Positions 1,723-57,366 of a stretch of DNA of 64,000 bases are shown in pieces (position 1 is the stretch's first letter; each line of letters starts with the position of its first letter). Source of the DNA: Arcanobacterium wilhelmae (lineage in GTDB: Bacteria > Actinomycetota > Actinomycetes > Actinomycetales > Actinomycetaceae); NCBI RefSeq assembly GCF_029632765.1, contig NZ_CP121247.1:1116001-1180000 (forward strand), given 5' to 3'. A program made the translations under genes and the position numbers. A model generated the notes under the pieces. It ran no database searches, had not been told where the DNA came from, and saw only the letters and a list, made by a program, of their open reading frames with translations.

Positions 1723-1759
1723 GCACCGACGTCGCGAACGTGGCTCCCGACGTCGGTGC
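1723..1759. repeat. inverted pair of the 12-mer GCACCGACGTCG between thrS and sdaA
   Basis: GCACCGACGTCG at 1723-1734 is followed after 13 bases by its exact reverse complement at 1748-1759, so a 12-bp stem with a 13-base loop is possible. It lies between two divergent genes, where a terminator is not expected. The same 12-mer recurs dispersed across the window (see findings). Function unknown. Confidence 0.85.
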
Positions 1760-1780
1760 CACCCGAGCCTGCGTCCCACC

Positions 1781-1809
1781 TGCACACGCTCGCGAAAACG
1801 CGTTACTCT
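1781..1809 (+). promoter_or_regulatory. putative leaderless promoter of sdaA
   Basis: TGCACA (1781-1786), 17-base spacer, TACTCT (1804-1809), then six bases to the ATG at 1816. There is no Shine-Dalgarno sequence, so the transcript probably begins at or next to the start codon. Prediction from pattern only. Confidence 0.5.
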
Positions 1810-1815
1810 TTCCTC

Positions 1816-3198
1816 ATGGCTTTGAGCGTTTTCGATCTGTTTTCTATTGGCATTGGCCCGTCGTCTTCGCACACGGTTGGCCCGATGCGCGCGGCCGCGA
1901 TGTTCCTGGAGTCGCTGGGCGATCTGACGCAGGTGGAGCGCGTGGAGTGCCGCCTGTACGGCTCGCTCGGCGCAACGGGAGTTGGCCACGCTACCGATAA
2001 GGCAGTGATGATCGGCTTGATGGGCGAACAGCCGGAAACTGTGGATCCCAAGCGCGTCACTCCCCTCGTGCACAAGGTTGAGGAGGAACTCGCCCTGAAC
2101 CTGGGCGGGGTGAAGGTGATCGATTTCCCGCCCCAGCGCGACATTATCTTCCTGGGACGCGAGGAGCTGCCCGGGCATCCGAACGGCATGACGCTCGAGG
2201 CATGGAACGCGGCCGGAGCGCGACTTGCGTTCACGACCTACTATTCGGTGGGTGGCGGTTTCGTCGTGGAGGGCGACGTGACGCCGGACGAGCCCGTGAT
2301 TGCCGACGAGCACCCCGTCCCCTACCCGTTTAGTACCGCGGCTGAGTTGCTGGAGATTTGCGACCGCGAGAACCTCACGATCGCGCAGGTCGTGATGGCG
2401 AACGAGCTCACCTGCCGGACGGAGACGGAGGTTCGCGAGGGCCTGATGGAGATTTGGCAGGTGATGAAGGATTGCGTGACCAACGGCGTCACCTCCGATG
2501 AGGGGATTTTGCCGGGGGTTTTGCGCGTACCGCGGCGTGCGCCAGCGCTCGCGGCGAGCCTGAAGGAGCGCGACGACGCCGGTGATCCGCTTCGCGGGCT
2601 CGATTGGGTAACTCTGTTCGCGCTTGCCGTCAACGAGGAGAATGCGGCCGGTGGGCGCATCGTCACCGCGCCGACCAATGGCGCCGCCGGGATTATTCCG
2701 GCCGTCCTGCACTATTACATGAGTTTCTGTGAGGGCAGTGACGAGGGCGTGATCGAGTTCCTACTGACGGCTGCGGCTGTGGGCATGATCGTGAAGAATA
2801 ATGCTTCGCTTTCCGGCGCCGAGGTGGGGTGTCAAGGTGAGGTCGGTTCGGCCTCATCGATGGCTGCGGGAGGAGTGACAGCGGTGCTCGGTGGCACGCC
2901 GCACCAGGTGGAGAACGCTGCCGAGATCGCGATGGAGCACAACCTCGGGCTCACCTGCGATCCGATTGCGGGCCTGGTACAAATTCCGTGCATTGAGCGC
3001 AACGCGGTGGCGTCCGTGAAGGCGCTGACGGCAGCTCGTACCGCGCTGCGCGGCAACGGCGAGCACATGGTGTCGCTCGATGAGGTGGTGCGAACGATGA
3101 AGGAAACCGGGCGCGACATGCAGGTGAAGTATAAGGAGACCGCCCTCGGCGGGCTTGCAGTTCACGCGGGAATCCCGGTCTCGATTGTGGAGTGCTGA
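1816..3198 (+). CDS. sdaA: L-serine ammonia-lyase (serine deaminase), iron-sulfur type
   Basis: Deaminates L-serine to pyruvate and ammonia in the cytosol. The 460-residue protein has the single-chain bacterial layout: an N-terminal beta domain starting FDLFSIGIGPSSSHTVGPMRA and a C-terminal catalytic alpha domain. The cysteines expected to hold the 4Fe-4S cluster are at about residues 339 (EVGCQGEVG), 381 (TCDPIAG) and 392 (PCIER), all present. The ATG at 1816 is preferred to upstream in-frame starts because the family begins MxLSVFDLFSIGIGPSSSH and a -10-like box sits six bases upstream. A strong hairpin terminator follows the stop. Monocistronic by position. Confidence 0.95.
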   Translation: MALSVFDLFSIGIGPSSSHTVGPMRAAAMFLESLGDLTQVERVECRLYGSLGATGVGHATDKAVMIGLMGEQPETVDPKRVTPLVHKVEEELALNLGGVKVIDFPPQRDIIFLGREELPGHPNGMTLEAWNAAGARLAFTTYYSVGGGFVVEGDVTPDEPVIADEHPVPYPFSTAAELLEICDRENLTIAQVVMANELTCRTETEVREGLMEIWQVMKDCVTNGVTSDEGILPGVLRVPRRAPALAASLKERDDAGDPLRGLDWVTLFALAVNEENAAGGRIVTAPTNGAAGIIPAVLHYYMSFCEGSDEGVIEFLLTAAAVGMIVKNNASLSGAEVGCQGEVGSASSMAAGGVTAVLGGTPHQVENAAEIAMEHNLGLTCDPIAGLVQIPCIERNAVASVKALTAARTALRGNGEHMVSLDEVVRTMKETGRDMQVKYKETALGGLAVHAGIPVSIVEC

Positions 3199-3212
3199 AC
3201 TGACCGATTTTT

Positions 3213-3248
3213 ATTGGGGTGCTGGTTGAGGCGAACCAGCACCCCAAT
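3213..3248 (+). terminator. rho-independent-type terminator of sdaA
   Basis: ATTGGGGTGCTGGTT (3213-3227), six-base loop GAGGCG, then the perfect complement AACCAGCACCCCAAT (3234-3248). The T-run is short, as is common in actinobacteria. Confidence 0.85.
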
Positions 3249-3348
3249 TGTTCACCCATGATCCGCGCCACGTCATCCGAAGTCCGTATACCACGCGCAT
3301 CCCATTTCCGTGCCATAGATGCACGCCAGCCGCGCAAGTCTTCACCCC

Positions 3349-3378
3349 TTGCGCTTCATCTCGCTAAAGTGCTAAAGT
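3349..3378 (+). promoter_or_regulatory. putative promoter with tandem GCTAAAGT upstream of the TrpR-like gene
   Basis: TTGCGC (3349-3354), 18-base spacer, TAAAGT (3373-3378). The octamer GCTAAAGT is duplicated head to tail at 3363-3370 and 3371-3378, overlapping the -10 box, so it could be an operator for the TrpR-like protein encoded just downstream. The regulatory role is inference. Confidence 0.45.
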
Positions 3379-3441
3379 GGCACGCGTTGAGCAAACCGAG
3401 CTCCGACGTCGGCGGGAAACCGCACTTACGAAAGGCAACCT

Positions 3442-3735
3442 ATGGAACGCAAAATCGGCCAGCTTTCGCAGGCAATCGCGGATCTCGAATCTGCCGACGC
3501 TGTGCGCGCGTTCCTTGAGGACCTGTGCACGATCCGCGAAATCCAAGACATGGCCCAGCGCCTCGAAGCGGCCCGCATGCTTGAGGACGGAGCGTCCTAC
3601 CAGGAGGTCAGCGACGAGCTCGCGATCTCTTCGGCAACCATCGCCCGCGTGAATAAGGCTCTCCACTACGGCGCCGGCGGCTACAAGGCTGTGCTCGCCC
3701 GCCTCGGCTCGCAAAAGTCTCGACACGAGGGCTGA
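3442..3735 (+). CDS. YerC/YecD-type TrpR-related DNA-binding protein
   Basis: A 97-residue protein with the compact all-helical TrpR-like fold of the YerC/YecD family. A helix-turn-helix is visible around residues 45-70 (MLEDGASYQEVSDELAIS followed by SATIARVNKAL). The start at 3442 has AAAGG six bases upstream. It sits between sdaA and an amino-acid ABC importer in the same direction, so a role in amino-acid-responsive control of its neighbours is plausible but not shown. A copy of the CCGACGTCGG core lies just upstream (about 3403). Family members are usually of unknown ligand. A hairpin follows the stop and may separate it from the transporter. Confidence 0.88.
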   Translation: MERKIGQLSQAIADLESADAVRAFLEDLCTIREIQDMAQRLEAARMLEDGASYQEVSDELAISSATIARVNKALHYGAGGYKAVLARLGSQKSRHEG

Positions 3736-3750
3736 AACCTGCATACTGCA

Positions 3751-3773
3751 CGGGCTGGCACTGTCCCAGCCCG
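3751..3773 (+). terminator. hairpin downstream of the TrpR-like gene
   Basis: CGGGCTGG (3751-3758) pairs with CCAGCCCG (3766-3773) across a seven-base loop. No T-run follows. It could be a weak terminator or part of the leader of the transporter operon. Confidence 0.5.
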
Positions 3774-3828
3774 ACGCCGGTGTACCCGATTCACCTCCCT
3801 TCCCCACTTTTTCTCGTTAGGACTTTTC

Positions 3829-4632
3829 ATGAAATTCGCAAAGCTCGCTGTCCTCGCAGCCGCTGCACTCCTCGCCCTCGGCGCCTGCAGCCAGAGCGCC
3901 ACGACCAATTCCTCTCCCGAACCTGGCATGGAGTTCGCCGTCGGCTTCGATCAAAGCTATCCACCCTACGGCTTCATCGGCCCGGACGGCAACTACACCG
4001 GATTCGATCTCGATCTCGCAGCAGAGGTTGCCAAGCGCAACGGCTGGACGTACAAAGCCGAACCTATCAACTGGGATACGAAAGACGCCGAACTCGAGAC
4101 CGGCGCGATCACCGCAATCTGGAACGGCTTCACCATGGAGGGCCGCGAAGGCCAATACACCTTCTCAGATCCCTACATGCTCAACGGCCAGGTGGTCGTG
4201 GTCAAGGCAGGATCCGGGATCAAGGATGTCGCTGGCTTGAAAGGAAGGAACGTGGTCACCCAGGTCGATTCGGCCGCGCTCGATGTCCTCACTGGCGCCC
4301 AGAAGAAAATCGCAGATACCTTCGGTTCCCTCCAAGAACGCGACAACTACAACACCGCGTTCATGGAGCTCGAATCCGGCGCTGTAGACGCCGTCGCCTG
4401 CGATCTTTCCATCGCCCAGTTCCAGATGGCCGCGAACCCGGGAGCCTACTTCCAGCTCCCTGATCCACTCTCATCCGAGCACTACGTGGTGGCGTTCAAG
4501 AAGGGGCGCACGGAGCTCGCCGCCGCCGTCACGAAGACTCTGCGCGAAATGGCAGCCGACGGCACCGTGGAAAAAATCGCGAAGAAGTACGAAAAAGACG
4601 GCCTGTCTGACAAAAACTGGCTCCTGAAGTAA
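3829..4632 (+). CDS. amino-acid ABC transporter substrate-binding lipoprotein
   Basis: Extracytoplasmic receptor of a polar amino-acid importer (SBP family 3), anchored by lipid. The signal peptide ends in lipobox LGAC with the modified Cys at residue 20. The mature domain starts with EFAVGFDQSYPPYGFIGPDG and contains GFDLDLAAEVAKRNGW, both typical of periplasmic binding proteins for glutamine, histidine or cystine. Length 267 residues is normal. AGGA precedes the ATG. Permease and ATPase genes follow in the same direction at 4695 and 5352, giving a complete importer. Substrate cannot be assigned from sequence alone. Confidence 0.93.
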   Translation: MKFAKLAVLAAAALLALGACSQSATTNSSPEPGMEFAVGFDQSYPPYGFIGPDGNYTGFDLDLAAEVAKRNGWTYKAEPINWDTKDAELETGAITAIWNGFTMEGREGQYTFSDPYMLNGQVVVVKAGSGIKDVAGLKGRNVVTQVDSAALDVLTGAQKKIADTFGSLQERDNYNTAFMELESGAVDAVACDLSIAQFQMAANPGAYFQLPDPLSSEHYVVAFKKGRTELAAAVTKTLREMAADGTVEKIAKKYEKDGLSDKNWLLK

Positions 4633-4655
4633 GCCCCGCATCGAGCGCGCGCCGT

Positions 4656-4667
4656 GCACCGGCGTCG
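4656..4667 (+). repeat. intergenic copy of the dispersed 12-mer GCACCGGCGTCG
   Basis: Exact copy of the motif described in the findings, placed in the 62-base gap between the binding-protein and permease genes. Confidence 0.8.
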
Positions 4668-4694
4668 TCGTTCTCAACGAAACGAGAATCCCCC

Positions 4695-5348
4695 ATGACT
4701 ATCTCAGTAATGCTCACCGGCCTGTTGCAGGGCCTGGGCCTGTCGATCGCGATCTTCGTGCTCACGCTGATCGGTGCGCTCCCCCTCGGAATCCCGATCG
4801 CGTTCGCACGCATGAGCACGATCGCGCCGCTTCGGTGGCTCGCCCGCGCCTATATTTCGATTATGCGCGGAACGCCGCTCATGCTGCAGATGCTCGCGAT
4901 CTATTTCGCGCCGTACTACGTGTTCGGGATCGAGCTGAACTCGAACTCGAAGTTCATCGCGGCCGTGGTGGCGTTCATCCTCAACTATGCGGGCTATTTC
5001 GCGGAAATCTACCGTTCCGGTTTGGGATCGATTCCGCGCGGGCAGTGGGAGGCTGCCGACGTGCTCGGCTATACGCGCGCCGGTGCGTTCCGGCGGATCA
5101 TTTTCCCGCAGGTGATTCAGCGCATTCTGCCCGCCACGGGTAACGAGGTGATCACGCTGGTGAAAGATACGTCGTTGGCGTTCTCGCTGGGCATCTTGGA
5201 GATGTTCTCGATTGCGAAGGCGCAGGCCGCGGCGAGCGCGTCGATGCTGCCGTTTATCCTGGCGGGCGTGATTTATTGGGTGGTCAACTTCGGCGTGGAG
5301 ATTGCGCTGGGGCGGATCGAGAAGCGTTACAACTACGAGATGGTGTGA
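4695..5348 (+). CDS. amino-acid ABC transporter permease
   Basis: Inner-membrane channel subunit of the importer (HisM/GlnP type, 217 residues). It has about five hydrophobic segments, the first at residues 8-30. The conserved EAA loop reads EAADVLGYTRAGAFRRIIFPQ near residues 117-137, the contact site for the ATPase. The motif RGTPLMLQMLAIYF is typical of polar amino-acid permeases. It follows the binding-protein gene and is three bases from the ATPase gene, so all three are probably co-transcribed. No strong ribosome-binding site is seen; translation may depend on the upstream gene. Confidence 0.94.
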   Translation: MTISVMLTGLLQGLGLSIAIFVLTLIGALPLGIPIAFARMSTIAPLRWLARAYISIMRGTPLMLQMLAIYFAPYYVFGIELNSNSKFIAAVVAFILNYAGYFAEIYRSGLGSIPRGQWEAADVLGYTRAGAFRRIIFPQVIQRILPATGNEVITLVKDTSLAFSLGILEMFSIAKAQAAASASMLPFILAGVIYWVVNFGVEIALGRIEKRYNYEMV

Positions 5349-5351
5349 AAA

Positions 5352-6104
5352 ATGAGCGTTGTTTCTGTACGCGATGCGCGTAAGCGGTTCGGTTCGCAGC
5401 CGGTACTCAAGGGCGTGAGCCTGGAGGTGGCCGAGGGCGAAGTGGTGGCGATTATTGGACCGTCGGGTGGCGGAAAATCCACGTTGCTGCGTTGCCTCAC
5501 CCTGCTCGAGCGGCTCGATTCGGGCGAGCTAACGTATGGCGAACTCGAGGTGGCCTCCGACGACGCCGGTGGCGCGCGTTACGCCGACCGCTCGGTTCTC
5601 GCCCAAGCGAAGGCGCGTTTCGGGCTGGTGTTTCAAAACTACAATCTCTTCCCGCACATGAGCGTGCTGCAGAACGTGATGGACGCGCCGATCCACGTGG
5701 CCGGGCGCGAGAGGCGCGAGGTTGAGGTGCAGGCGCGTGCCTTGCTGGCCCGGATGGGTTTAGAGGGTGCGGCTGAGAAGATGCCGAGTCAGATCTCGGG
5801 AGGGCAGGCGCAGCGCGCGTCGATTGCGAGGGCGCTGGCGATGCAGCCGGACGTTCTCTATTTTGACGAACCGACGTCGGCGCTCGATCCGGAGCTGACG
5901 GCAGGCGTGCTCGGCGTGATACGCGAATTGGCCAAGGAACGAATGACGATGGTGATCGTGACCCACGAGATGGCATTCGCACGAGAGGTGGCCGACCGCG
6001 TGGTGTTCCTCGACGGCGGAGTGATCGTGGAGGAAGGCACGCCGCAGCAGGTGTTTGATGCCCCGCGCGAGGCCCGCACAAAGGCGTTCGTGGCAGGGGC
6101 ATAG
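5352..6104 (+). CDS. amino-acid ABC transporter ATP-binding protein
   Basis: Cytoplasmic ATPase that powers the importer (GlnQ/HisP family, 250 residues). Walker A is GPSGGGKS at about residues 37-44, the Q-loop is [13 protein letters not shown], the signature is [14 protein letters not shown], Walker B is [13 protein letters not shown] and the switch histidine is in VTHEM. The ATG is three bases after the permease stop codon. The DNA encoding the EPTSALD segment contains ACCGACGTCGGCGC, a near copy of the dispersed motif. Nothing is missing, so it should be active. Confidence 0.95.
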
Positions 6105-6114
6105 CGCGCCGCGG

Positions 6115-6120
6115 TAGCAT
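6115..6120 (+). promoter_or_regulatory. putative -10 box (leaderless) of the 652-residue membrane protein
   Basis: TAGCAT ends six bases before the GTG at 6127; no Shine-Dalgarno sequence and no clear -35. Confidence 0.4.
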
Positions 6121-6126
6121 CGTGGG

Positions 6127-8085
6127 GTGACTACTCACCACACTCACCGTTCTCGTTTGCCTGAAAATACCGAGGCTCAGCGTCGCGATTGCTGGCGCCG
6201 TCTCGTTGTGATTGGCGCGATCCTGATCGCCCTGGCGACGGGATGGGGCGCCTCGCTCCTGGCCCAGCAGTTCGCGCCGGAGCCGGCTCCCCTACCATCG
6301 GCGTCGTCGTACTCGCATGAGGAGTACGCGAAACTGGAGTGGAAGTACGAGAGCGCCCAGCTGTGGATTGCGCGGCAGGCTCACGCGACGGGGATCCTCG
6401 CGGGAGGCATCGCGCTGGTGCTCGCGTATGTTGGCCTCGACGCGGCACGCCAGAACGCGATCCAGCGACGCCGGTTCCTGGGCCTCGCGGCGCGCTCCCG
6501 GCGCGAACGCCGCGCGGCTCTCGCCCGCGCACGCAGGCAGTTTACGCAGGCGAGCTCACAGATAGAGGAGCTGAGTTTCCTCCCGATCTTGCCGAATGCG
6601 ACGAGCTCGGTGGAGGTTCGCGAGCGGGCACTTGCTCGTTGGAACGCCCGTTACGTCGAGTTTGCGCGCGCGATGTTCGCGGCGAACGAGTTTTCGGATC
6701 GAGAGCTGATCTCCGATCGTGAGCTCGCGTTGCTGACGAGGATCGTTTCGCTCGCGGATCTCGTCGAACGCACCACCGCGGATCTGCTGGGCGGCAATGA
6801 GGTGGCGCCGGAGCTGACGACGCCGCCCGAGCCCGTTTCCTCATCAGCAGCGACTGTGCCGGGCGCTCCTGAGCACGTACCACCAACGCCTACAGCCGAG
6901 CAGACGACCGATGCACCGCACCCGGCCACGCCGATGCTTGCGCCACCAGCCGACGGCGCCGGCGCACCGCCGTCGCTCCTCATGCTCCCCTCCGCAAAGT
7001 TCTCGCTCAATCCGCGGGTTGTGGCGTGGGCGTTTCCGCTCGCGGTCGCGTTCGCGGCAGTTGGGGTTTTCGTTGCGCCGGGCGTGTTCACTCCGCGCCT
7101 GTTCCCTCACTTCCCCACGTTCGTTCCGACCGATCCGAATGCTAGATTCCACGCCACTTATCCCGCAGCCGTGATGGTGAGTTCCCTATGGTTCTACTTC
7201 CCCGCGCTGGCCACGTTGGGCGTGGTGAGAGCGGTGGTTGGTGCTGTTCGCCGCAGGCGCGCGGAGCGGGCGGAGATCGCGACGACGCTGACCGCGTTGG
7301 CTCTGCAATACGATTCGCTTCAGCTCGAGGGCCTGCGTCTCGCCGTCGACGCCGGCACGTACAGTGCGCAAGCAGAGCGCCGGTTTTCGATGTGGCCGAC
7401 GTCGTACGTGCGCGGCGTGCGTATCGCGAACGATCCGGATTCAAGCCATCGCAGGAAGCTCGCCGCGGTTCGAATGCTTCGTGCACAGGCGGAGAGCCTG
7501 TGGCGGATCGGGCCGATTCTCGACGGCGAGCTCGAGGCATCGCGTCTGCTCGACGACGAGGTCACCACGATGTATGCCCTGCTCTCGGCGGTGAAGTCTG
7601 CGCAGGTTTCAGAGCTGCTTGAGTTCGCGAACCGTCGTACTCACGTGAGCCTGGATCCGGCGTCGGCGCTGACCGAACTGGATGCGATTGCGCGCGAGGA
7701 GGGCGTGGCCCGCCTGTGGCGTCAGCTTTTCGTGGCCGAAGATACGCTCTACAAAGCCTATATTGATCGGCTGGCCTCGAAGCGTCACGCGTTGAGCGGG
7801 CGCCGCAGGGAGGCGATCTCGGAAGGTTTTGCGCGCGCCTCGCTGATCGGGCGCGATTCGCTCACGCAGCCGCGGCTTGTGCGCGAGGAGCCAGAATTTC
7901 GGTATTCAGTGCGCGAGTTGCGCGGGCCGTTGCTTGCGCGCCTGGCCGCGCGATGGGCCGCCTGGCGCACACGCCACGCCGCCGCCTCCGAGCTGATCAT
8001 TTTTCTCGTGTGGTGCGCAAGCGGTCTGGTCTTTATGATCGCCGGATACGCCACTCTTGCCCTGTTCCTTGAAGCCTTCGGCTGA
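6127..8085 (+). CDS. membrane protein of unknown function, 652 residues
   Basis: I do not recognise a family. Hydrophobic segments lie near residues 26-47, 88-105, 298-320, 348-372 and 625-650. After the second is an Arg/Ala-rich stretch (about 112-140) likely to be a cytoplasmic helical region; residues 228-285 are rich in Pro, Ala and Thr, like a flexible linker. The region between about 375 and 615 is soluble, charged and predicted helical. It starts with GTG just behind the ABC-transporter ATPase on the same strand, but a likely promoter of its own lies in the gap. The gene's composition matches its neighbours. It could be a scaffold or sensor; no catalytic motif is visible. Confidence 0.8.
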   Translation: MTTHHTHRSRLPENTEAQRRDCWRRLVVIGAILIALATGWGASLLAQQFAPEPAPLPSASSYSHEEYAKLEWKYESAQLWIARQAHATGILAGGIALVLAYVGLDAARQNAIQRRRFLGLAARSRRERRAALARARRQFTQASSQIEELSFLPILPNATSSVEVRERALARWNARYVEFARAMFAANEFSDRELISDRELALLTRIVSLADLVERTTADLLGGNEVAPELTTPPEPVSSSAATVPGAPEHVPPTPTAEQTTDAPHPATPMLAPPADGAGAPPSLLMLPSAKFSLNPRVVAWAFPLAVAFAAVGVFVAPGVFTPRLFPHFPTFVPTDPNARFHATYPAAVMVSSLWFYFPALATLGVVRAVVGAVRRRRAERAEIATTLTALALQYDSLQLEGLRLAVDAGTYSAQAERRFSMWPTSYVRGVRIANDPDSSHRRKLAAVRMLRAQAESLWRIGPILDGELEASRLLDDEVTTMYALLSAVKSAQVSELLEFANRRTHVSLDPASALTELDAIAREEGVARLWRQLFVAEDTLYKAYIDRLASKRHALSGRRREAISEGFARASLIGRDSLTQPRLVREEPEFRYSVRELRGPLLARLAARWAAWRTRHAAASELIIFLVWCASGLVFMIAGYATLALFLEAFG

Positions 8086-8410
8086 CGCTACGCCTGCACC
8101 AGCCGCCGTGAGCTCTCGTTACACCAACATGAACGCATTGCCTAAGCTTCGGTCTTCGTTAGCCGACGATACGCTTTCACAAACTGTTTTGCGAACGAAA
8201 TCCGGTACGTCACGGAGCCCCCCCCGGGAGATTAGGCAGACGTGGAGCTGTGGAGGAAAGCCAGTGCATCGTCGATGCAACCGCAATTCTGGGTAGCGCC
8301 CTGATGGCAATCACGTTCAAAGTAACCGAGCCGCTGTTGGATCACCTGACAGATAACAGCTCACACGATTCATGATGCCTTTTGCCAAGAGATACTTAAC
8401 TCAAGCTCTG
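8086..8410. other. 325-bp non-coding stretch at the left edge of the accessory island
   Basis: No gene with credible start, length and codon pattern is seen on either strand. It contains a run of eight C followed by GGG at about 8218-8228 and no strong hairpin. Being next to several gene relics, it is probably decayed sequence. Confidence 0.55.
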
Positions 8411-8487
8411 CGCCGTTCGCTTCGATCACGGCTCGCGAGCTGCGGCTTCGTCGTCGGCGGAAAGCTCGCGCAAAACCAACGTCGGCA
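8411..8487 (-). pseudogene. relic of a GNAT acetyltransferase gene (internal deletion)
   Basis: Bases 8411-8440 are identical to 12395-12424 and bases 8446-8487 closely match 12797-12838, two separated parts of the intact GNAT gene at 12324-12839. The relic keeps the start codon and the first residues (MPTLVLRELSADDEAAA) and then jumps directly to the part coding for GSRAVIEANG, out of frame, ending at TGA. About 370 bases of gene are missing. The intact gene has GCTCGCG at both ends of the missing part, so loss through short-homology recombination fits. Confidence 0.85.
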
Positions 8488-8494
8488 TCTCTGG

Positions 8495-8841
8495 TTACGC
8501 TTCTTTCGTCAACTGGCCAGCACGCTGGTAAGAGACGCCGAGCAACATCCCGATGTCACGCAACGTGATGCCCTCTTCCTGCAAAACGCGAGCGGCCTGG
8601 CGGTACTCACGAGCGCTACGAGCATTGGCTTCCTCAGCGACACGACGCGATTCTTTTGCGCTCTCCATCGCATCCGTGAAAGCACGCGGCAAGCGCGGAA
8701 CAACATGAATACCAACTTGGTCTTCTGCCACACCTGCAAGGTAAACGATTGGTATGACAAACCTGCGGCCGCAGCAGCAGCCTTGCGGATTTTGATCACT
8801 TGCCTACGCTTCGTCTGAGAATTCCACCCCGAGAGAGACAC
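8495..8841 (-). pseudogene. relic of a HicA-HicB-like toxin-antitoxin module
   Basis: Two reading frames overlap. One begins near 8841 with TKRRQVIKIRKAAAAAAGLSY, resembling the start of actinobacterial HicA toxins. It then loses all similarity. The shifted frame from about 8760 down to the stop at 8495 reads IHVVPRLPRAFTDAM... and ends in LRDIGMLLGVSYQRAGQL, typical of the helical C-terminus of HicB-like antitoxins. The HicA dsRBD-like body with its catalytic His, and the HicB N-terminal domain, are absent. The simplest reading is a deletion and frameshift that merged the two genes. Family assignment is from memory of the motifs. Confidence 0.5.
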
Positions 8842-8847
8842 GCAATT

Positions 8848-9294: not shown

Positions 9295-9376
9295 AAAACC
9301 ACCCCAGCGGCGTTCAGCTTGTGCTACTCGGACGTCGGTAGTCCAGCTTTTTAACCGGTGGAATTTATCGAATCGA

Positions 9377-9414: not shown

Positions 9415-9446
9415 AGAATCGCTACGAAAAGTAGCTACCGCACGGC

Positions 9447-47038: not shown

Positions 47039-47044
47039 AAAAGC

Positions 47045-49323: not shown

Positions 49324-49427
49324 GCGTGTCGCGGCGTGTTTTTATTCCTCCCCCACCGTTGGACGTTCTCGGGAGGGCTCGTGCACCTGGACTTCATGCC
49401 CATGAGTGGCAATGGGAGTGTTCCTAC

Positions 49428-49808: not shown

Positions 49809-49846
49809 GGCGGCTCCTCACTCTGAAAAATGCGTCCTCCCTAGTG

Positions 49847-49875
49847 AAGATACCGATTTCTTACACTAAATGAAA
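49847..49875 (-). promoter_or_regulatory. promoter of the Usp gene
   Basis: On the minus strand TTTCAT (49875-49870), 17-base spacer, TATCTT (49852-49847). Confidence 0.6.
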
Positions 49876-49898
49876 CTTTTCACGCGATTTCATTTGCA

Positions 49899-51011
49899 TC
49901 ACACTCCCTGTGTTCGCATTGCTTCCCCTTCGGCCTCGTCCAACCGTTCTTCAGCGCTGATCACCCATGGCGGCGGCAATACTGCCGAGTATGCACGATG
50001 CAAAAGAGCGGCCAATGGATACTGAGGATCGGATTCCCACGCAAGATCGGAATAGAGCGCCCCGCGCCTTCCATCCCCACTCCACCACGCAAGGTAAGCA
50101 AGCATCGCATATGGCCGCGCATCGTCGTCGCCGCTGTATCGTGCAAGCATTGTCAGCAGATGGCTGAGTAACGTTATTCGCTCGAGAGGCGGTCGCTGCT
50201 CGCTGAGCTCGCGCAGGCGTTCCCGCGTCGCCTGACGCCCAAGGACACTCACGCGCTCCACGCTTGGATCCAACGCCCACAACAGGATCGCATCACGCTG
50301 ATAAGGATTCGTGAGATAGGCGAGCAAACGTGCCCACACCCAGACAGTGTCGCGATGAATGCTCGGTAACAGACCGTAAGGGTTGGCAGGAGTGCTTTCG
50401 ATGTGCGCAAGGGCGGCATCCCATTCTTCAGCGAAGTTCGTCCGTCCTTTTGCCACGTAGTTCCGGTAGCGAATAAGGATTTTCTCACGGCGCTCGCAGT
50501 CGAAACGCGCAAGATTCTCCGCCGCGAGCAACGGCACTTCCCAGAACCCACTGTAGAGAGTGTCGAAGCCTTCCTCTTTTTCGAGTTCATGGAAGGGGAA
50601 ACTGAAATCGCTCCCGCGGGAGTTGTACCATGCATGAAGTTGCGTGACGTCGGCGTAATCAGTGTAGAGAAGCGCAACGTTCACATGGTCCAGGCTCTCC
50701 AAGCAACTCGTGGTTTCCAAAAGTGCCTTCTCGGTGTGGGACATCGTGTTCCTGTCAAACGGCTGATTGCCGTACCAAACCATCGCCACATGATCCGCCT
50801 TCATATCGTTCGCAAAAGCGCGAATCGCCTTGGTGAATTTTTCGCCGATCTCGCCGCGGGTCAGATCCCAGAGCAACACAGGACCGATCGCAGTATCGAG
50901 AAACACGCCCGGTTGACAGTTGAGCGCCACGATACCGATGGCTTGGCGTGGCCGATAGCCGAGCATGTGCGGGAGAAGAAGAATTGTTCGTTCAATCGAT
51001 AGAATATCCAT
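49899..51011 (-). CDS. DUF4192 domain-containing protein
   Basis: 370 residues. The DUF4192 pattern is visible: LLPHMLGYRPRQAIGIVALN near the start, and AMLAYLAWWSGDGRRGALYSDLAWESDPQYPLAALLHRA-type ending (residues about 315-350, shown in parts), where families have WLAGDGARA. It is an actinobacterial protein of unknown function. The ATG at 51011 is preceded by TGGAAT six bases upstream and no Shine-Dalgarno sequence, so it is probably leaderless. It is divergent from the polyprenyl synthase gene. Confidence 0.85.
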   Translation of the reverse strand: MDILSIERTILLLPHMLGYRPRQAIGIVALNCQPGVFLDTAIGPVLLWDLTRGEIGEKFTKAIRAFANDMKADHVAMVWYGNQPFDRNTMSHTEKALLETTSCLESLDHVNVALLYTDYADVTQLHAWYNSRGSDFSFPFHELEKEEGFDTLYSGFWEVPLLAAENLARFDCERREKILIRYRNYVAKGRTNFAEEWDAALAHIESTPANPYGLLPSIHRDTVWVWARLLAYLTNPYQRDAILLWALDPSVERVSVLGRQATRERLRELSEQRPPLERITLLSHLLTMLARYSGDDDARPYAMLAYLAWWSGDGRRGALYSDLAWESDPQYPLAALLHRAYSAVLPPPWVISAEERLDEAEGEAMRTQGV

Positions 51012-51112
51012 GCGCCTATTCCACGCGAATTGCGCACTGTCTCGCGCTGGTGCACCGCCCTCTGTGGAAACTGTTGGCACGAGCGAAAAATGTGGAAAAC
51101 TTTCTCCTCGGC

Positions 51113-51118
51113 TACCCT
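51113..51118 (+). promoter_or_regulatory. leaderless -10 box of the polyprenyl synthase gene
   Basis: TACCCT six bases before the ATG at 51125. Confidence 0.5.
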
Positions 51119-51124
51119 TGCCTT

Positions 51125-52159
51125 ATGAACCAAACTTTTGCGTCCGACGTCACGAACCGCATCAACGAGCTGCTGTCTTCCGTGCGTTTTTCGCACCATC
51201 TGAGCCGGGAATTCGTCGAACCGGTGCGCGAGCTCGCCCAGGGCGGCAAGCGCACCCGCGCTCTGTTTGTTGCCGCGGGGTGGGAGGCCGCCGGCGGCGA
51301 AGACCCGTTGCCGTTGCACGCCGGAACCGCAGTCGAGCTCTACCAGCTCTCCGCACTCGTTCACGACGATCTCATCGATCACGCCACCACACGCCGCGGA
51401 ACGGATGCATCACACGTGGGATTTGCAAAAATTCATGCGCGCGAATCCATGAGAGGCATCGCGGATGAATTCGGCACCGCCGCAACCATCGTGCTGGGCG
51501 ATTATCTTCTCAGCCTCGCAATGGAGGAAATGGCTGTGGCAGAGGCCGTTTCCGACGAAGCTCGAAGCGCCGGAATGCGCTTGTTCGCCACAATGACCGC
51601 CGAAACGGCGTTCGGCCAATACCTCGATATCCGCGCCGAAAACGTTCCCCTCTCGCCAGACGTCGAGGAGGCGACCGACTCCGCACTCGCAGTTCTCCTG
51701 CACAAGTCGGCGCGGTATTCCGTTGAGTCGCCGCTCCTCCTCGGAGCGACGCTGCGCGGCGCCGATCACGCCACGCTCACGGCACTATCGAAGGTTGGGC
51801 TTCCTCTTGGGGAGGCTTTCCAACTTCGCGACGACGATCTGGGGATTTTCGGCAAGCCGGAGCTCACGGGGAAGCCTGTCGGGAGCGACTGGAGCGAGGG
51901 GAAGCGGACTGTTCTCCTTGCGCTCACGCGCGCGGGACTCGATGTCAGCAACCTTGCCAACGCCGACGCACTGCTTGGATCCCCTCTGGACGCTCAGCAA
52001 GCCCGGCGCGTTCAGGAGCTGGTGGAAAAATCGGGAGCTCGAGAACTCCACGAACGCATGATCACCCGACGCGAGGACGCGGCGCTCGAGGCCGCAGAGC
52101 ATATCGATACCCCGATCCTCCACTCGCTGATCTACCAGTTAATCGGACGCGATTCGTGA
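51125..52159 (+). CDS. polyprenyl diphosphate synthase (IdsA-like)
   Basis: Builds short or medium polyprenyl diphosphates (geranyl/farnesyl/geranylgeranyl type) from the C5 units made by the MEP pathway. 344 residues. GGKRTRALFVAAG at about 40-52 (pyrophosphate-binding Arg/Lys), first Asp-rich motif VHDDLIDHA (DDxxD) near 79-87, second DDDLGIFGKPELTGKP near 238-253. All catalytic aspartates are present. It lies next to the Rv2175c-like and PASTA-kinase genes, the same order as idsA2-Rv2175c-pknL-aroG in mycobacteria (known gene order). Confidence 0.93.
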   Translation: MNQTFASDVTNRINELLSSVRFSHHLSREFVEPVRELAQGGKRTRALFVAAGWEAAGGEDPLPLHAGTAVELYQLSALVHDDLIDHATTRRGTDASHVGFAKIHARESMRGIADEFGTAATIVLGDYLLSLAMEEMAVAEAVSDEARSAGMRLFATMTAETAFGQYLDIRAENVPLSPDVEEATDSALAVLLHKSARYSVESPLLLGATLRGADHATLTALSKVGLPLGEAFQLRDDDLGIFGKPELTGKPVGSDWSEGKRTVLLALTRAGLDVSNLANADALLGSPLDAQQARRVQELVEKSGARELHERMITRREDAALEAAEHIDTPILHSLIYQLIGRDS

Positions 52160-52165
52160 AAACTC

Positions 52166-52525
52166 CTACACCTGGAGAAGTGCGAGCCTGCGCACCGCAT
52201 GGGTGTTTCCTGCGCCGAGCGCTTCGAGTGGAGTAGCGCCGAGCTCGTCAGCGTATTCAAGGAGCCAGTCCATCTTCTCCTGATTCGTGAAGGCGAGATC
52301 AGAAAGGACAGTCAGCGTTCCCTTGAGCGCCGGAATAGGCTCACACGTGTCTCCGCTGTGGCGAAGCTCTCCAATGTGAATCATCCAGGCGTTATTGTCG
52401 CCTCGGCGCACAGCCAGGAGCGCCCCTTCATCCAACATTGAGCGGACTTCGCGCTGTTTGACGCCAATCAGTTCGGCAACCTCTGGAACGGACAACCACG
52501 TTTCCTCAGAAAATTGTTCAGTCAC
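52166..52525 (-). CDS. Rv2175c-family DNA-binding protein
   Basis: 119 residues. A winged-helix/MerR-like N-terminus carries WLSVPEVAELIGVKQREVRSMLDEGALLAVRRGDNNAWMI (given in parts), the HTH with its wing, followed by a helical C-terminus with TNQEKMDWLLEYADELGATPLEALGAG. Rv2175c is a known substrate of the kinase PknL, and here the kinase gene is 1.3 kb away. The GTG start at 52525 is six bases from a TATGTT box, so it is leaderless. Confidence 0.88.
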   Translation of the reverse strand: MTEQFSEETWLSVPEVAELIGVKQREVRSMLDEGALLAVRRGDNNAWMIHIGELRHSGDTCEPIPALKGTLTVLSDLAFTNQEKMDWLLEYADELGATPLEALGAGNTHAVRRLALLQV

Positions 52526-52531
52526 AGGCGC

Positions 52532-52537
52532 AACATA
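52532..52537 (-). promoter_or_regulatory. leaderless -10 box of the Rv2175c-like gene
   Basis: On the minus strand TATGTT, GCGCCT, then GTG. Confidence 0.55.
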
Positions 52538-52644
52538 GCGCACTTTTTTCAAAATCGCAGTAGCGACACGCCACAATTTCCACTACAGTCACATCCTGAA
52601 CGTTATTTAACTTTTATCAATTGTTTCACATTTGTAACATTCGA

Positions 52645-52662
52645 CGAGCCGAGTACGGCTCG
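52645..52662 (+). other. 5'-leader hairpin ahead of the LysM-SLT gene
   Basis: CGAGCCG-AGTA-CGGCTCG, three bases before the AGGAGG ribosome-binding site. It may affect access to the start. The A/T-rich stretch 52598-52640 just upstream probably holds the promoter. Confidence 0.55.
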
Positions 52663-52674
52663 ACAGGAGGAACA

Positions 52675-53760
52675 ATGGCACGCACGCTCGCCTCGGCACT
52701 CGCGCTCGCAACCACGGCCGCGGCCTTCACGCCCACCGCCGCTTCCGCGGTCACGGGAACGTCCGCGCTCACACTCGCACCGACGTCGCCGGCTACACTC
52801 CAAATCAACTACCAAGTCAAGAAGGGCGATTCCTTCTGGGCAATCGGCCACCGATTCGGCGTGCCGATGCGCGAGGTCGCGGCCGCTAATGGTCTGAAAC
52901 TCACCGACGTCATCCACCCAGGCCAGCTTCTCGTCATCCCCGCGGCGCAACCGCGCACCGCCGCCGCAAAGCCAGCGCCAGCGCCTGCTGCGAAGGTTCC
53001 AGCGAAGAAGGCAAAGCCAGCCACTGCGCCAGCACCGCGTTCGGCGGCAAAGTCGGGCGTCTACACGGTCCGCGCAGGCGACACTCTCTCCGCCATCGCA
53101 CGCTCGAACAACACCACCGTTTCCGCCCTCGCCTCGCTCAATAAGATCGCCAACCCGTCGCGGATCTACGTCGGCCAGCGCATCGTGCTGTCCGCGCCGA
53201 CGGCGACCGCGCCAACAACGAAGGCGGCACCGGCCTCGAAGGCTACACCTGCAGCGAAGAAGACAGCAACGAAACAACTCGTGACCAACAACTTCCCGGG
53301 CTACACGTACGCCAGCGCCACCGTTGCGGCGGCGAACGCAAACAAGAACGCCCTCGTCGCCCGCTCCCACCCCTCGCGCGCACAGGTCCAGGCGATGGTC
53401 GCTGCCACAGCACGCGCCATGGGCGTCAACCCGCGTCTTGCGCTCGCCCACGCCTACAACGAATCCGGATTCGATGCTTCCGCAGTGTCCCCCGCAAACG
53501 CGATCGGAGTGATGCAGGTGATCCCCTCCTCCGGGAAATGGGCAGAGAGCCTAGTCGGTCGCAAGCTCAACCTGCTCGACGTACAGGACAACATCACCGC
53601 TGGCGTCGCAATCATCCGCTACCTCCAGACCCACGCAAGCTCACTGGAGCAAGGCATCGCAGGCTACTACCAAGGCCTGGGCGGGGTACGCAAGTACGGA
53701 ATGTACCCCGATACCAAGGTCTACGTGGCAAAGATCAAAGCTTCAATGAAGAAGTTCTAA
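52675..53760 (+). CDS. secreted LysM and lytic-transglycosylase (SLT) protein
   Basis: Cell-wall hydrolase, 361 residues. A signal peptide (about 1-25, AAASAV cut) precedes LysM1 (residues 45-88: YQVKKGDSFWAIGHRFGV), an Ala/Pro/Lys linker, LysM2 (129-172: YTVRAGDTLSAIARSNNTT) and the C-terminal SLT domain (about 235-361) with LALAHAYNESGFDASA, whose Glu263 is the expected catalytic acid, and AIGVMQVIP. AGGAGG lies four bases upstream of the ATG. The neighbour PknL-like kinase suggests wall-growth control. A dispersed 12-mer copy is at 52777-52788. Confidence 0.93.
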   Translation: MARTLASALALATTAAAFTPTAASAVTGTSALTLAPTSPATLQINYQVKKGDSFWAIGHRFGVPMREVAAANGLKLTDVIHPGQLLVIPAAQPRTAAAKPAPAPAAKVPAKKAKPATAPAPRSAAKSGVYTVRAGDTLSAIARSNNTTVSALASLNKIANPSRIYVGQRIVLSAPTATAPTTKAAPASKATPAAKKTATKQLVTNNFPGYTYASATVAAANANKNALVARSHPSRAQVQAMVAATARAMGVNPRLALAHAYNESGFDASAVSPANAIGVMQVIPSSGKWAESLVGRKLNLLDVQDNITAGVAIIRYLQTHASSLEQGIAGYYQGLGGVRKYGMYPDTKVYVAKIKASMKKF

Positions 53761-53763
53761 ACC

Positions 53764-53800
53764 ATGAGTGCGGCGCGGGAACTGCCCGCGCCGCACTCAT
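53764..53800 (+). terminator. terminator of the LysM-SLT gene
   Basis: A perfect 16-bp stem (53764-53779 with 53785-53800) closed by AACTG; no T-run. Confidence 0.85.
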
Positions 53801-53837
53801 GTGCGATTGCTCAAACCACGCCCACCCAAATATTCGG

Positions 53838-53843
53838 TAGGCT
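53838..53843 (+). promoter_or_regulatory. leaderless -10 box of the PknL-like gene
   Basis: TAGGCT six bases before the GTG at 53850. Confidence 0.5.
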
Positions 53844-53849
53844 AGGCGT

Positions 53850-55852
53850 GTGAATTCTTCAGACCCACTCATCGGCTCGGCGATCGACGGCCGCTACTAC
53901 CTCACAGCGCGTATCGCTCGCGGTGGCACGGCCACTGTGTACCGTGCACGTGATTCACGCCTAGATCGCGACGTTGCTCTGAAGATCATCCATCCCCACC
54001 TGGCCGAGGATCCCTCGTTTGTTGAACGATTCATCCGCGAGGCTCGCTCTGCCGCTTCACTCTCCTCGCCACATATCGTCTCCGTTTACGATCAAGGCAT
54101 CGCGCGTGTGGGCGGAGCGGACCGCGCCTACCTCGTCATGGAACTCATGAGCGGGCCGAACCTGCGCACCGAACTCAACTCTCACGGCTCGCTTCCCATC
54201 GGCGCAGCCCTCGCCATCACGCGTCAAGTCCTGCGCGCACTGGCCGTTGCTCATGCGAAGAACGTGATCCACCGTGACGTCAAACCAGAAAATATCCTGC
54301 TTGAATCATCCATCGACACGTCGGCTGTGATGTCGGCGCCGAAGGTCAACGCGAAAGTCGCCGACTTCGGTCTCGCGCGAGCCGCATCGGATCCGCGCGG
54401 AACCTCCACCGGCACTCTCCTCGGCACCGTCGCCTACGTGCCGCCAGAACTCGTCACGCACGCAACAGCGTCCCCGACGTCGGATATCTATTCCACCGGC
54501 ATCATGCTCTATGAACTGATCGCAGGCGCATTGCCGTTTGAAGGCGAAACCGCCATCCAGATTGCGTTCTCGCACGTCAACACACCCATGCCACGGCTGA
54601 CGGAGCTCGCGCAGTGGATGCCGCCGGTATCGACTCCCTCATCGCTTTGTTTACCTCGAAAGATCCTGCCAAGCGCCCTGCAACCGCGTCGGCGGCGATC
54701 GACGCACTCGACGACGTCGCCGCCTCCGTCCCTGACGAACTACGGTTTCGGCGCATTCCGGTGTTCCCCAGCGCACAGCCCGTCGCCCCGGCAGCAACAG
54801 CGGTTCTCGAGCGCTCTGAGGCCCCCACAGCACCGTCGCACAACCCGCCGTCGCAGGCCACGATCGCACTCCCCCAAGTTTCGCGTGGGCCCGTCCAGCC
54901 CACGGCTCGCCTCGACGTCGGCACGGGCACTACCACTGAACTTCGCCAGGCGCGTCCAGCCACACGCAAGCGCCGGTGGCCCGCCGTCGTCGTCCTTCTC
55001 ATCCTCCTCGCCGCCGCCGCAACCGGCGCCTGGTGGTATTTCACCAAGGGGCCCGGGCTTCGAATTGAAGTGCCTGCCGTCGCCGGGGAAACAACAGTCT
55101 CTGCAGAAAAGTCAATACTCCATGCACAGTTGCAGTCGAAAATAGAATCTGCGTACTCCGATACCGTCGCCAAAGATACTGTCATCGGCACCGATCCGGA
55201 GGCTGGAACAAAAATCCACCCCTCGCGTGTGGTCACCATCATTGTCTCGCGCGGTATCGAACAGGTGGAAGTCCCCGACGTCGTCGGGAAGAAATCCGAG
55301 GACGCACAAAACGCCCTTACCGAGGGCCGCCTCTCGCCCGAGATCGCGGAAGAGTATTCCGAGGACGTCCCCGCGGGCGAGGTCATTACTCAGAAGCCTG
55401 CTGCGGGGAACCACATCAACCACGACTCCACAGTCACCATCACCGTCTCGAAAGGCCGCCAACCCATCGAGATCCGCGACTACACTGGCTCCTCAGGCGA
55501 GGTCGCATCGGGTGAGCTCAGGGCCCTCGGATTTGCCGTGGACGTGAAGGGAACATTCTCAGACACCGTCCCCGAAGGTGAAGTGATCTCACAAAAGCCC
55601 GCCTCAGGCACCGGCTACAAGGGCGACACCATCACGCTTACCGTGTCTAAGGGGCCCGAACTTGTCGAAGTTCCCTCCGTCTTCGGCAAGCAGAAAGACA
55701 ACGCGGTCAAGGAACTTGAAAAAGCCGGCTTCAAAATAAAGGTTGAAGTGGACGCCCTGTGGGGCGAAGTGTTCGGCACAGTTCGAGCTCAAAGCCCCGC
55801 CGCCGGCGAAAAAGTGAAGAAGGGAAGCACCATCACGATCAATGTCGTGTAA
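53850..55852 (+). pseudogene. PASTA-domain serine/threonine protein kinase (PknL-like), split by an apparent -1 frameshift
   Basis: Frame 1 (53850-54623) encodes a complete-looking kinase domain: RGGTATVYRARD glycine loop, Lys45, HRDVKPENI (Asp143), DFGLA (172-176), TVAYVPPELV. Near 54621-54626 (CCGCCGG) the reading must slip back one base; frame 2 then continues GIDSLIALFTSKDPAKRPATA, a Pro/Thr linker, one membrane span (VVVLLILLAAAATGAWWYF) and about four PASTA repeats to 55852. Without the shift frame 1 runs on for 174 unrelated residues to 55145. It is a one-base deletion, a sequencing error or programmed slippage. Other residues are intact and the context equals pknL. Confidence 0.85.
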
Positions 55853-55944
55853 TCCCGCGCTCATATGAAGCGCGCGCTCGCACCACCAGACGAGCGAGCC
55901 AGCTACCCCGAACTAGGCTCCGGTTCCGCCGTGGGGTGATATTT

Positions 55945-57273
55945 TCAGCAACGATCGCGCAGGATCTGCGCCACCTCGAAAGCCAGTTCAAGCGCCTGCT
56001 CGTGATTGAGTCGCGGATCGACGAGAGTCTCGTATCGTTGCGGCAGATGCTCTTCAAGGATTTCGTTCGAACCGCCCAGCACCTCGGTGACGTCGTCGCC
56101 AGTAAGCTCGATATGAATTCCGCCCGGCACAGTGCCTGCGGCGCGGTGCACGTCGAAAAAGCCTGCAATCTCCGCGAGCACGTCGGCCATCCGGCGGGTC
56201 TTGAAGCCATTCGCGTAGAACGTGTTCCCGTGCATCGGATCGCAAATCCACGTCACTGGCCGCCCATCGCTCCTCACAGCCTCCACGATCGCAGGCAACA
56301 GGTGACGGACGTTGCCAGCTCCCATCCGGGTGATGAACGTGAGCCGGCCGGGAACGCCGTCAGGATTGAGACGATCGATCAGGCGCAAACACTCACCGGG
56401 CGTAGCATTGGGGCCAATTTTCACTCCGATCGGATTTGCCACCTGAGACAGTAGCTCCACGTGCGCGCCTTCCGGATCGCGGGTGCGCTCGCCGATCCAC
56501 AAGAAGTGGGCGGACGTATCGTAGAGCCGGTCCGACAGTGCATCGGGACGGATCAGCGCATCCTCGTAATCCAGCAGTAGCGCCTCATGGGAAGAGTAAA
56601 AATTCACGGTTGTGAGTGGATGTGCCTGCGCACCAGCAGCCGAAATAAATCGCAGAGCACGATCAATTTCCTCTGCCATCTCGTTGTACCGCTCGTAGGC
56701 CGCATTGCGGGCGAAACCGCGGTTCCATTCATGGACGAGGTTGACGTCGGCGAAGCCGCCATGTGAAAGCGCTCGAATAAGGTTGAGTGACGCTGCGGAC
56801 CGCGAATACATCGTCAGTAACCGGCCCGGGTCTGGCATGCGTGCCTCGGCAGTAAACTCGTACCCGTTCACAGCATCGCCGAAGTACGACGGGAGCGCAA
56901 CGCCGTGGCGAACTTCCGTGGCATGCGTGCGGGGCTTGGCATACTGACCGGCAATGCGGCCGATCTTCACGACAGGAACGGAGGCCGAATACGTGAGCAC
57001 AATCGCCATCTGGAGGATTGTCCGCACCTTCGCGCGAATCGGCTCTTCTCCCGAGGTAGCGAAGGATTCTGCACAGTCACCGCCTTGGAGCACGAACGCT
57101 CGGCCTTCGCCTGCGGCGGCCAACTGGCTCATCAGAGCGTCCGCCTCTGGAGCAAAAATCAGTGGCGGGAGTTCACGAATCTGTTCGATCACAGCGCGCA
57201 GACGCGCCGGATCACGATACGCCGGCTGGTGAAGCGCGGGCTTCGCCTTCCAGGATGGGATTGATTCGTTCAC
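55945..57273 (-). CDS. aroG: 3-deoxy-D-arabino-heptulosonate 7-phosphate synthase, class II
   Basis: First step of the shikimate pathway: joins phosphoenolpyruvate and erythrose 4-phosphate. 442 residues, the plant/actinobacterial class II type. Motifs: QGGDCAESFA (metal Cys), VKIGRIAGQYAKPRT, ALSHGGFADVNLVHEWN, GERTRDPEGAHVELLSQVANPIGVKIGP (in parts), VTWICDPMHGNT and GGIHIELTGDDVTE. All metal-ligand motifs are present. The GTG start is six bases after TAAGAT, so leaderless. Its adjacency to the PknL-like gene matches mycobacteria. Confidence 0.95.
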   Translation of the reverse strand: MNESIPSWKAKPALHQPAYRDPARLRAVIEQIRELPPLIFAPEADALMSQLAAAGEGRAFVLQGGDCAESFATSGEEPIRAKVRTILQMAIVLTYSASVPVVKIGRIAGQYAKPRTHATEVRHGVALPSYFGDAVNGYEFTAEARMPDPGRLLTMYSRSAASLNLIRALSHGGFADVNLVHEWNRGFARNAAYERYNEMAEEIDRALRFISAAGAQAHPLTTVNFYSSHEALLLDYEDALIRPDALSDRLYDTSAHFLWIGERTRDPEGAHVELLSQVANPIGVKIGPNATPGECLRLIDRLNPDGVPGRLTFITRMGAGNVRHLLPAIVEAVRSDGRPVTWICDPMHGNTFYANGFKTRRMADVLAEIAGFFDVHRAAGTVPGGIHIELTGDDVTEVLGGSNEILEEHLPQRYETLVDPRLNHEQALELAFEVAQILRDRC

Positions 57274-57279
57274 ACCGAT

Positions 57280-57285
57280 ATCTTA
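57280..57285 (-). promoter_or_regulatory. leaderless -10 box of aroG
   Basis: On the minus strand TAAGAT, ATCGGT, then the GTG start. Confidence 0.55.
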
Positions 57286-57332
57286 ATCGGAGACGGCCAG
57301 CCACGTGCGCCAACGCGTTGTCCGTTTCCTCA

Positions 57333-57366
57333 CGACGCCGGTGGGAAGCCTTGCGCACCGGCGTCG
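57333..57366. repeat. second inverted pair of the dispersed motif
   Basis: CGACGCCGGTG (57333-57343) and CACCGGCGTCG (57356-57366) are exact complements with a 12-base loop, in the gap between aroG and pfk. The right copy is a full GCACCGGCGTCG (57355-57366). A further GCCGACGTCG lies at about 57399. Confidence 0.85.

Follow-up and report, generated by a model that had tools for sequence, protein, structure and literature searches.

What keeps a 12-base word far above its chance frequency along a bacterial chromosome? The question is raised by a 64,000-nucleotide stretch of the Arcanobacterium wilhelmae genome (contig NZ_CP121247.1, positions 1,116,001 to 1,180,000; here called the window), in which the word GCACCGRCGTCG recurs on both strands. 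A previous inspection of the letters, made without database searches (the sequence-only reading), had called the word strongly over-represented and dispersed, with far fewer than one copy expected, and had offered four candidates: a DNA-uptake signal, a replication- or segregation-linked oligomer, a nucleoid-protein site, or a motif that a mobile element has spread. The host genome (G000; 2,015,622 bases in one contig) and its relatives were searched, 39 genomes in all, with G001 to G008 belonging to the same genus as the window. The ParC of G003 is identical to the Arcanobacterium phocae protein, and the genus is accordingly treated as Arcanobacterium. The word is the longest form of a shorter, strict core that has related dialects in related taxa, as far as sequence comparison can tell, and on balance we lean toward reading it as a genome-wide self-tag resembling the DNA uptake sequences.

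Abundance and core of the dispersed word

Exact searching found 12 copies of GCACCGRCGTCG in the window (9 plus and 3 minus), compared with a mean of 0.09 and a maximum of 2 in 100 dinucleotide shuffles, none of which reached 12. The sequence-only reading had listed 11 of these copies, all correctly placed, and had overlooked one; its "about eight" variants in the first base turned out to be exactly eight, lying 0 to 9 bases from the places it named. Together, these sites make up 20 occurrences of the 11-mer CACCGRCGTCG (11 plus and 9 minus). The whole host genome contained 292 copies of the 12-mer (144 plus and 148 minus), whereas its pattern read backwards, used as a control, occurred 5 times (2 and 3 by strand). 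The distribution was patchy, with no copies in 4 of 20 sampled stretches and 6 to 8 in three stretches near the end. The eight congeners carried 41, 17, 2, 9, 3, 8, 5, and 13 copies, and the remaining 30 of the 39 genomes carried 0 to 80, with the top counts in larger, high-GC genomes, so that a raw count needs a null. At its full 12 bases, the word is characteristic of the host species (292 copies versus 2 to 41 in its congeners).

Nulls for coding and noncoding DNA were applied to 464 kb of the host genome, consisting of the window and 20 stretches of 20 kb. Genes were called with a simple open reading frame (ORF) scorer that marks 76% of this sample as coding, and the noncoding class therefore takes in some missed genes. 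Against shuffling of synonymous codons within genes (60 shuffles of 319 kb), CACCGRCGTCG was observed 73 times versus 4.5 expected (standard deviation, 2.3; largest, 10), and CGRCGTCG was observed 681 times (318 sense and 363 antisense) versus 165 expected. Noncoding DNA (109 kb, order-3 Markov model) contained 38 versus 0.6 and 209 versus 31 copies, respectively. Three other CG-rich palindromes exceeded their expectation in the coding shuffles by 1.3- to 1.6-fold, so enrichment of that size is taken as background. Called genes enclosed 81 of 120 11-mers (47 sense and 34 antisense, with the phase reading ACC-GRC-GTC prevailing), and 39 lay outside. On the synonymous and Markov nulls, a codon or composition artifact was rejected, in agreement with the earlier argument that codon bias alone is no explanation; the codon-preserving shuffle that had been proposed as the refutation test left the counts well above expectation.

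The 12-mer, treated by the sequence-only reading as the unit, is not the basic unit. At position 3 of CGACGTCG, all bases were enriched (A, 5.9-fold; G, 3.6-fold; T, 3.2-fold; C, 2.9-fold), and since only this base is free and the other seven positions are strict, the core is CGNCGTCG, of which the 12-mer is the longest form. Enrichment climbs with the upstream CACC, from 5.9-fold for CGACGTCG to 21-fold for CACCGGCGTCG, and in the host species the core is lengthened to (G)CACCGRCGTCG(G). The flanks beyond the motif contain little information, with a weak preference for A at -8/-7. Core sites (palindromic form counted on both strands) occur at about 3.4 per kb, ranging from 2.7 to 4.5 per stretch. 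The three non-palindromic forms numbered 539 on the leading strand and 492 on the lagging strand, as assigned from local GC skew, and thus had no replication-strand bias, which does not support the earlier candidate of a replication- or segregation-oriented signal. Two low-GC (0.51) bins, L017:16001-20000 and L018:16001-20000, contained 1 and 3 core sites compared with a mean of 9.8; these bins are possibly acquired DNA.

Distribution and dialects among relatives

The core CGNCGTCG was enriched in all seven of the sampled genus genomes (G000, G001, and G004 to G008, from a genus set of nine), with overall values of 2.4- to 6.9-fold, and in G009, which belongs to a neighboring genus (113 versus 23.4 expected). 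Exceptions at base 3 were found in G006 (C, 0.8-fold, but T, 6.4-fold) and in G005 (G, 0 versus 1.8 expected). The palindromic form CGACGTCG was the most enriched in most congeners. In the flanks, C at -3 was shared across the genus; at -1 the host prefers C, and at +9 it prefers G where several others prefer T. In whole genomes, CGACGTCG exceeded CGTCGACG, a palindrome of the same dinucleotides, by 2- to 35-fold within the genus (nine members) and by 12-fold in G009, and the ratio in the other 29 genomes was 0.2 to 2.8; the 35-fold value, from G001, arises partly because the control word is rare there. With merely 17 copies in 1.87 Mb, CGTCGACG looks as if avoided in G001, perhaps as a restriction site effect.

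Among the 29 named loci of 19 to 23 kb (from a total of 80 that were fetched), 8 had the core at 3.5-fold or more, including those of A. bovis, A. pluranimalium, A. phocae, Actinotignum schaalii, and Actinobaculum massiliense. Low values came from loci labeled A. haemolyticum (1.4-fold) and Ancrocorticia populi (1.1-fold), and an uncultured Arcanobacterium had none. For A. bovis and A. pluranimalium, whose loci span 22 kb, control words were also raised, by up to 4.9-fold, and one control in this comparison, CGNCGACG, shares CGACGACG with the motif and is hence not fully independent. The high-GC genomes G010, G011, G012, G015, and G016 showed 1.7- to 1.8-fold values for the core, near background. 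The distribution of the core is clade-wide but patchy.

A hunt for dialects covered sampled DNA of 22 of the 39 genomes and used over-represented words or the grid CGNCxTCG. Three other family members were found to have look-alike words in place of the core (CGCCCTCGGMAA, CGYCCTC[G/T], and CCCCGGCCTCGT); these sister motifs retain the frame CGNCxTCG, with base 5 (G or C) and the tail altered. In G013, CGCCCTCG was present 127 times versus 15.3 expected, was strict except at base 3, and extends to CGCCCTCGG(A/C)AA(T), whereas the host-type core was under expectation (14 versus 29.7). Genome-wide, G013 contained 548 copies of CGCCCTCGGMAA (268 and 280 by strand) and none of the reversed control; 24 other genomes in the same search contained 0 to 10. 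The G019 word, CG[C/T]CCTC[G/T], has a relaxed base 8 (CGCCCTCG, 33 versus 6.1; CGCCCTCT, 31 versus 4.4). In the 151 kb sampled from G017, CCCCGGCCTCG occurred 38 times versus 1.3 and CCCGGCCTCGT 31 times versus 0.5, and the G017 word had 0 to 15 copies in each of 25 whole genomes, a set without G017. G020 contained CGCCGTCGG 34 times versus 5.5 expected. No comparable word was found in 38 to 71 kb each of G023, G024, G025, and G026, and G021 reached just 1.4-fold. At most 176 of the 65,536 8-mers (0.27%), before GC richness is considered, match the seven fixed bases of the core with no more than one substitution when both strands are allowed, which makes the resemblance unlikely to be accidental; the words of G013, G019, and G017 may go back to a single origin.

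The history of individual copies was judged against G001, the nearest relative (mean protein identity, 80.7%). None of 10 alignable coding 11-mers lay near an indel, and none of the 10 is an 11-mer in G001, a pattern suggesting that copies arise by substitution and turn over.

A putative uptake tag and its rivals

The dialect pattern, together with the genes for ComEA, ComEC, and a Tad pilus, best fits an uptake-type tag. In the host genome, a 525-amino-acid ComEC with a competence domain is encoded at L158:9391-10968 and adjoins ComEA (L158:8518-9246), which has SLBB and helix-hairpin-helix domains. Three loci contain TadA-type ATPases (L222, L223, and L224) with small pilin-like or RcpC neighbors. 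Competence genes, which the sequence-only reading had suggested looking for, are thus encoded in the host; ComEC and Tad-type ATPases also occur in motif-less relatives. In Micrococcus luteus, transformation requires comEA/comEC and a tad-type gene set (PMC4322843); this organism is likewise a high-GC Gram-positive bacterium with comEA/comEC and tad loci, and the phrase "uptake sequence" is absent from the main text of that paper.

The likeness to known uptake systems extends to the motif. The DNA uptake sequences (DUS) of the Neisseriaceae are described as short words repeated hundreds to thousands of times on both strands, within genes and between them, with dialects as a property of the system: related genomes have variants around a conserved sub-core, and some genomes of the family have none (PMC3630211). 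The uptake signal sequences (USS) of the Pasteurellaceae form two subclade dialects in one family, originate by mutation rather than copying, and occur in a family whose members all hold competence genes, whether or not each is competent (PMC1626085). USS are flanked by AT-rich repeats (PMC1626085), whereas the present words have only the weak A preference in the host and the AA(T) tail in G013. The present words also differ from DUS in sequence and come from another phylum.

Under the proposed mechanism, a surface receptor of a DNA import machine built from a Tad/Flp pilus and ComEA/ComEC would recognize the core CGNCGTCG on free DNA, and tagged DNA of the cell's own kind would be taken up preferentially and then recombined into the chromosome. 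Point mutations that create a tag would thereby spread, and tags would build up on both strands, inside genes as well as between them; drift of the receptor would yield the dialects of relatives, with G or C as the fifth core base and different tails. The data cover the word with its strictness and excess over the nulls, its spread, dialects, and turnover among relatives, and the gene set; that the host is competent, that a receptor exists, that tagged DNA is preferred in uptake, and that such drive made the tags accumulate are the parts of this model that we infer. A wider proposal is put forward tentatively: an Actinomycetota family may have its own uptake language, with a CGNC[G/C]TCG core, dialects at species and genus level, and a component of a Tad/Flp pilus or ComEA system as reader, as an independent third origin with a different kind of receptor. 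Uptake sequences are already established in the Neisseriaceae and Pasteurellaceae. If the proposal is true, selective uptake of DNA by sequence would have evolved once more in high-GC Gram-positive bacteria, using other hardware; the motif would predict which relatives exchange DNA, and it would supply ready tags for the genetics of bacteria that have few tools. Judged by title, none of the open-licence papers listed for CGACGTCG (25 of 367 matches), CGNCGTCG, CGACGNCG, GNCGTCG, and longer words reported the motif, and none of those listed on the subject dealt with uptake sequences in Actinomycetota or Actinomycetaceae or with natural transformation in Arcanobacterium.

Several observations weigh against the uptake reading. 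Single-mismatch copies outnumber exact ones in Neisseria (PMC3630211), whereas one-off forms of the core are not in excess here: substitutions at the other seven positions of CGACGTCG gave 0.6- to 1.3-fold values, and CGGCGTCG substituted at other positions gave 0.4- to 1.3-fold values. Inverted close pairs are common in Neisseria, but here pairs within 300 bp were inverted in 9 of 19 cases, with no excess, two strong hairpins in the window notwithstanding. Known uptake sequences are reported to have an orientation bias in genes, and the 11-mers of the coding-shuffle sample had no strong preference (41/32). Core density is uneven (variance/mean, 1.5 in 116 bins of 4 kb) and correlates with GC content (r, 0.57), the poorest bin having a GC content of 0.51. 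In the comparison with G008, which is more distant, an indel was near 14 of 91 core sites and near 4 of 6 11-mers, versus 6 to 7% for random positions; over a short distance, sites thus seem to come chiefly from substitutions and to move on, and over a longer one they lie in permissive, indel-prone places. Where the encoded amino acids are identical, G001 shares 18 of 62 core sites in genes (4.5 expected under shuffling), which is not clearly above the control words (8/34, 4/39, 0/2, and 4/27), two of which overlap the motif in one form each (CGTCGTCG and CGCCGTCG) and are hence not fully independent.

The machinery gives further counterevidence. The cut-off of the TadA model was passed by only the first of the three ATPases (all three pass T2SSE), and the host ComEC scores 63, compared with a cut-off of 190 for the full ComEC/Rec2 model. 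ComEC was present in 38 of the 39 genomes, the motif-less G023, G024, and G026 among them, and Tad-type ATPases (T2SSE) were found in 25 of 25 genomes tested, including G026. With both nearly universal, the gene set allows but does not explain the motif, and correlating motif with competence genes led nowhere. No receptor was found in the annotation of the tad and com loci, the extent of the receptor search, and unlike in the Neisseriaceae no T4a pilus or ComP was identified; no dedicated receptor search was made. Should the uptake reading prove mistaken, something must still read a word that is strict, forms dialects, and is evenly spread.

The main rival, which we nevertheless consider unlikely, is an origin like that of the cyanobacterial highly iterated palindrome HIP1, in which a DNA methyltransferase or methylation-directed repair would make and keep the word and dialects would follow enzyme specificity. 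HIP1 and its alternatives are over-represented, GC-rich 8-base words at roughly 1 to 3 per kb, with alternate, methyltransferase-tied words in relatives (PMC4390886); the density here is of the same order as the one site per about 1,000 nucleotides given for HIP1, and the predominance of the palindromic CGACGTCG among congeners fits as well. Such an origin predicts a matching methyltransferase and a palindrome, as HIPs are (PMC4390886), and the prediction of a palindrome fails: the core accepts any base at position 3, and CGNCCTCG, the dialect of G013 and G019, can form no palindrome. Moreover, one-off forms of HIP1 vary at the outer bases (PMC4390886), where the host core is strict, its free base being internal, and the specific words reach 11 to 12 bases.

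A recombination signal of the Chi type, recognized by a helicase-nuclease that processes DNA ends, is disfavored and is improbable to a greater degree. The host encodes, at L223:5032-8322, a UvrD helicase with a PD-(D/E)XK nuclease domain, which we take to be AdnB-like. Chi and the FtsK-orienting polar sequences (KOPS) resemble the present motif in being short and over-represented, and some of them contain a free base; Chi-type signals are strict and vary between taxa. Unlike these, the core forms have no strand bias. No RecC match was obtained in the motif-bearing genomes (G000 to G009, G013, G017, G019, and G020), and the Gram-positive AddB model gave 13 weak matches and none above the cut-off in 39 genomes, alphaproteobacterial-type AddB not being searched.

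Of the candidates in the sequence-only reading, the DNA-uptake signal is the best supported, and a binding site for a nucleoid or chromosome-organizing protein is retained with still lower probability. The roughly uniform density, the lack of strand bias, and the presence of copies in both genes and gaps favor it, but it does not specifically predict turnover between relatives or a family-wide one-base change, and no candidate protein was found, no search aimed at one having been made. Mobile-repeat debris or cargo, or a codon or composition effect, is very improbable: another dispersed repeat, one half of which is GAGTTGTGCAC, abuts the motif at two places in the sample, but information stops at the motif edges with no conserved flanking element, the flank profile and the G001 alignments speak against spread by a larger mobile element, and the synonymous shuffles speak against a codon effect.

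Sites in the window and other repeats

The motif sites of the window are given in Table 1. The first inverted pair is predicted to form a hairpin at 1723-1759 (-24.9 kcal/mol; z, -3.0), and a similar value was predicted for the second (-25.2 kcal/mol; z, -3.2). With no excess of inverted pairs overall, a terminator role for such hairpins is doubtful.

Table 1. Motif occurrences in the 64-kb window
Feature	Position	Strand	Found by	Context
Exact 12-mer GCACCGACGTCG	1723..1734	+	exact search	left arm of first inverted pair
Exact 12-mer GCACCGACGTCG	1748..1759	-	exact search	right arm of first inverted pair
11-mer CACCGRCGTCG	2574..2584	-		
11-mer CACCGRCGTCG	3772..3782	-		noncoding by gene calls
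Exact 12-mer	4656..4667	+		noncoding by gene calls
11-mer CACCGRCGTCG	5561..5571	-		
Exact 12-mer	11158..11169	+	exact search	
Exact 12-mer	11710..11721	+	exact search	
Exact 12-mer	12523..12534	-	exact search	
11-mer CACCGRCGTCG	16833..16843	+		
11-mer CACCGGCGTCG	21007..21017	+		noncoding by gene calls
11-mer CACCGRCGTCG	23798..23808	-		
Exact 12-mer	24411..24422	+		within ORF called at 23553-25256
Exact 12-mer	30411..30422	+		antisense to ORF called at 30056-31255 (-)
Exact 12-mer	38618..38629	-	exact search	overlooked by the sequence-only reading
Exact 12-mer	39319..39330	+	exact search	
Exact 12-mer	52777..52788	+		within ORF called at 52675-53760
11-mer CACCGGCGTCG, first 12-mer base differs	57333..57343	-		left arm of second inverted pair
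Exact 12-mer	57355..57366	+		right arm of second inverted pair
11-mer CACCGRCGTCG	63654..63664	-		
Core CGNCGTCG	1..64000	113 +, 112 -		palindromic CGACGTCG counted on both strands

Elsewhere in the window, a thiamine pyrophosphate (TPP) riboswitch at 18434-18538 (minus strand) lies upstream of transporter-like genes (14882-18396), and five tRNA genes, four on the minus strand and one on the plus strand, occupy 14056-14642. A second dispersed repeat in the host genome contains GATTGATTGAGTTGTGCAC (e.g., L024:6115-6340, L011:17003-17243, and L010:10658) and occurs partly as inverted pairs and also within an 81-bp tandem. At two places in the host sample, the 12-mer directly follows GAGTTGT. A CRISPR-like array in G009 (L161:3640-8893) contains 87 word copies with a 61-bp period and varying spacers, and L198 of G011 contains a clustered palindrome, TTTCACGTGAAA, with 10 copies in about 5 kb.

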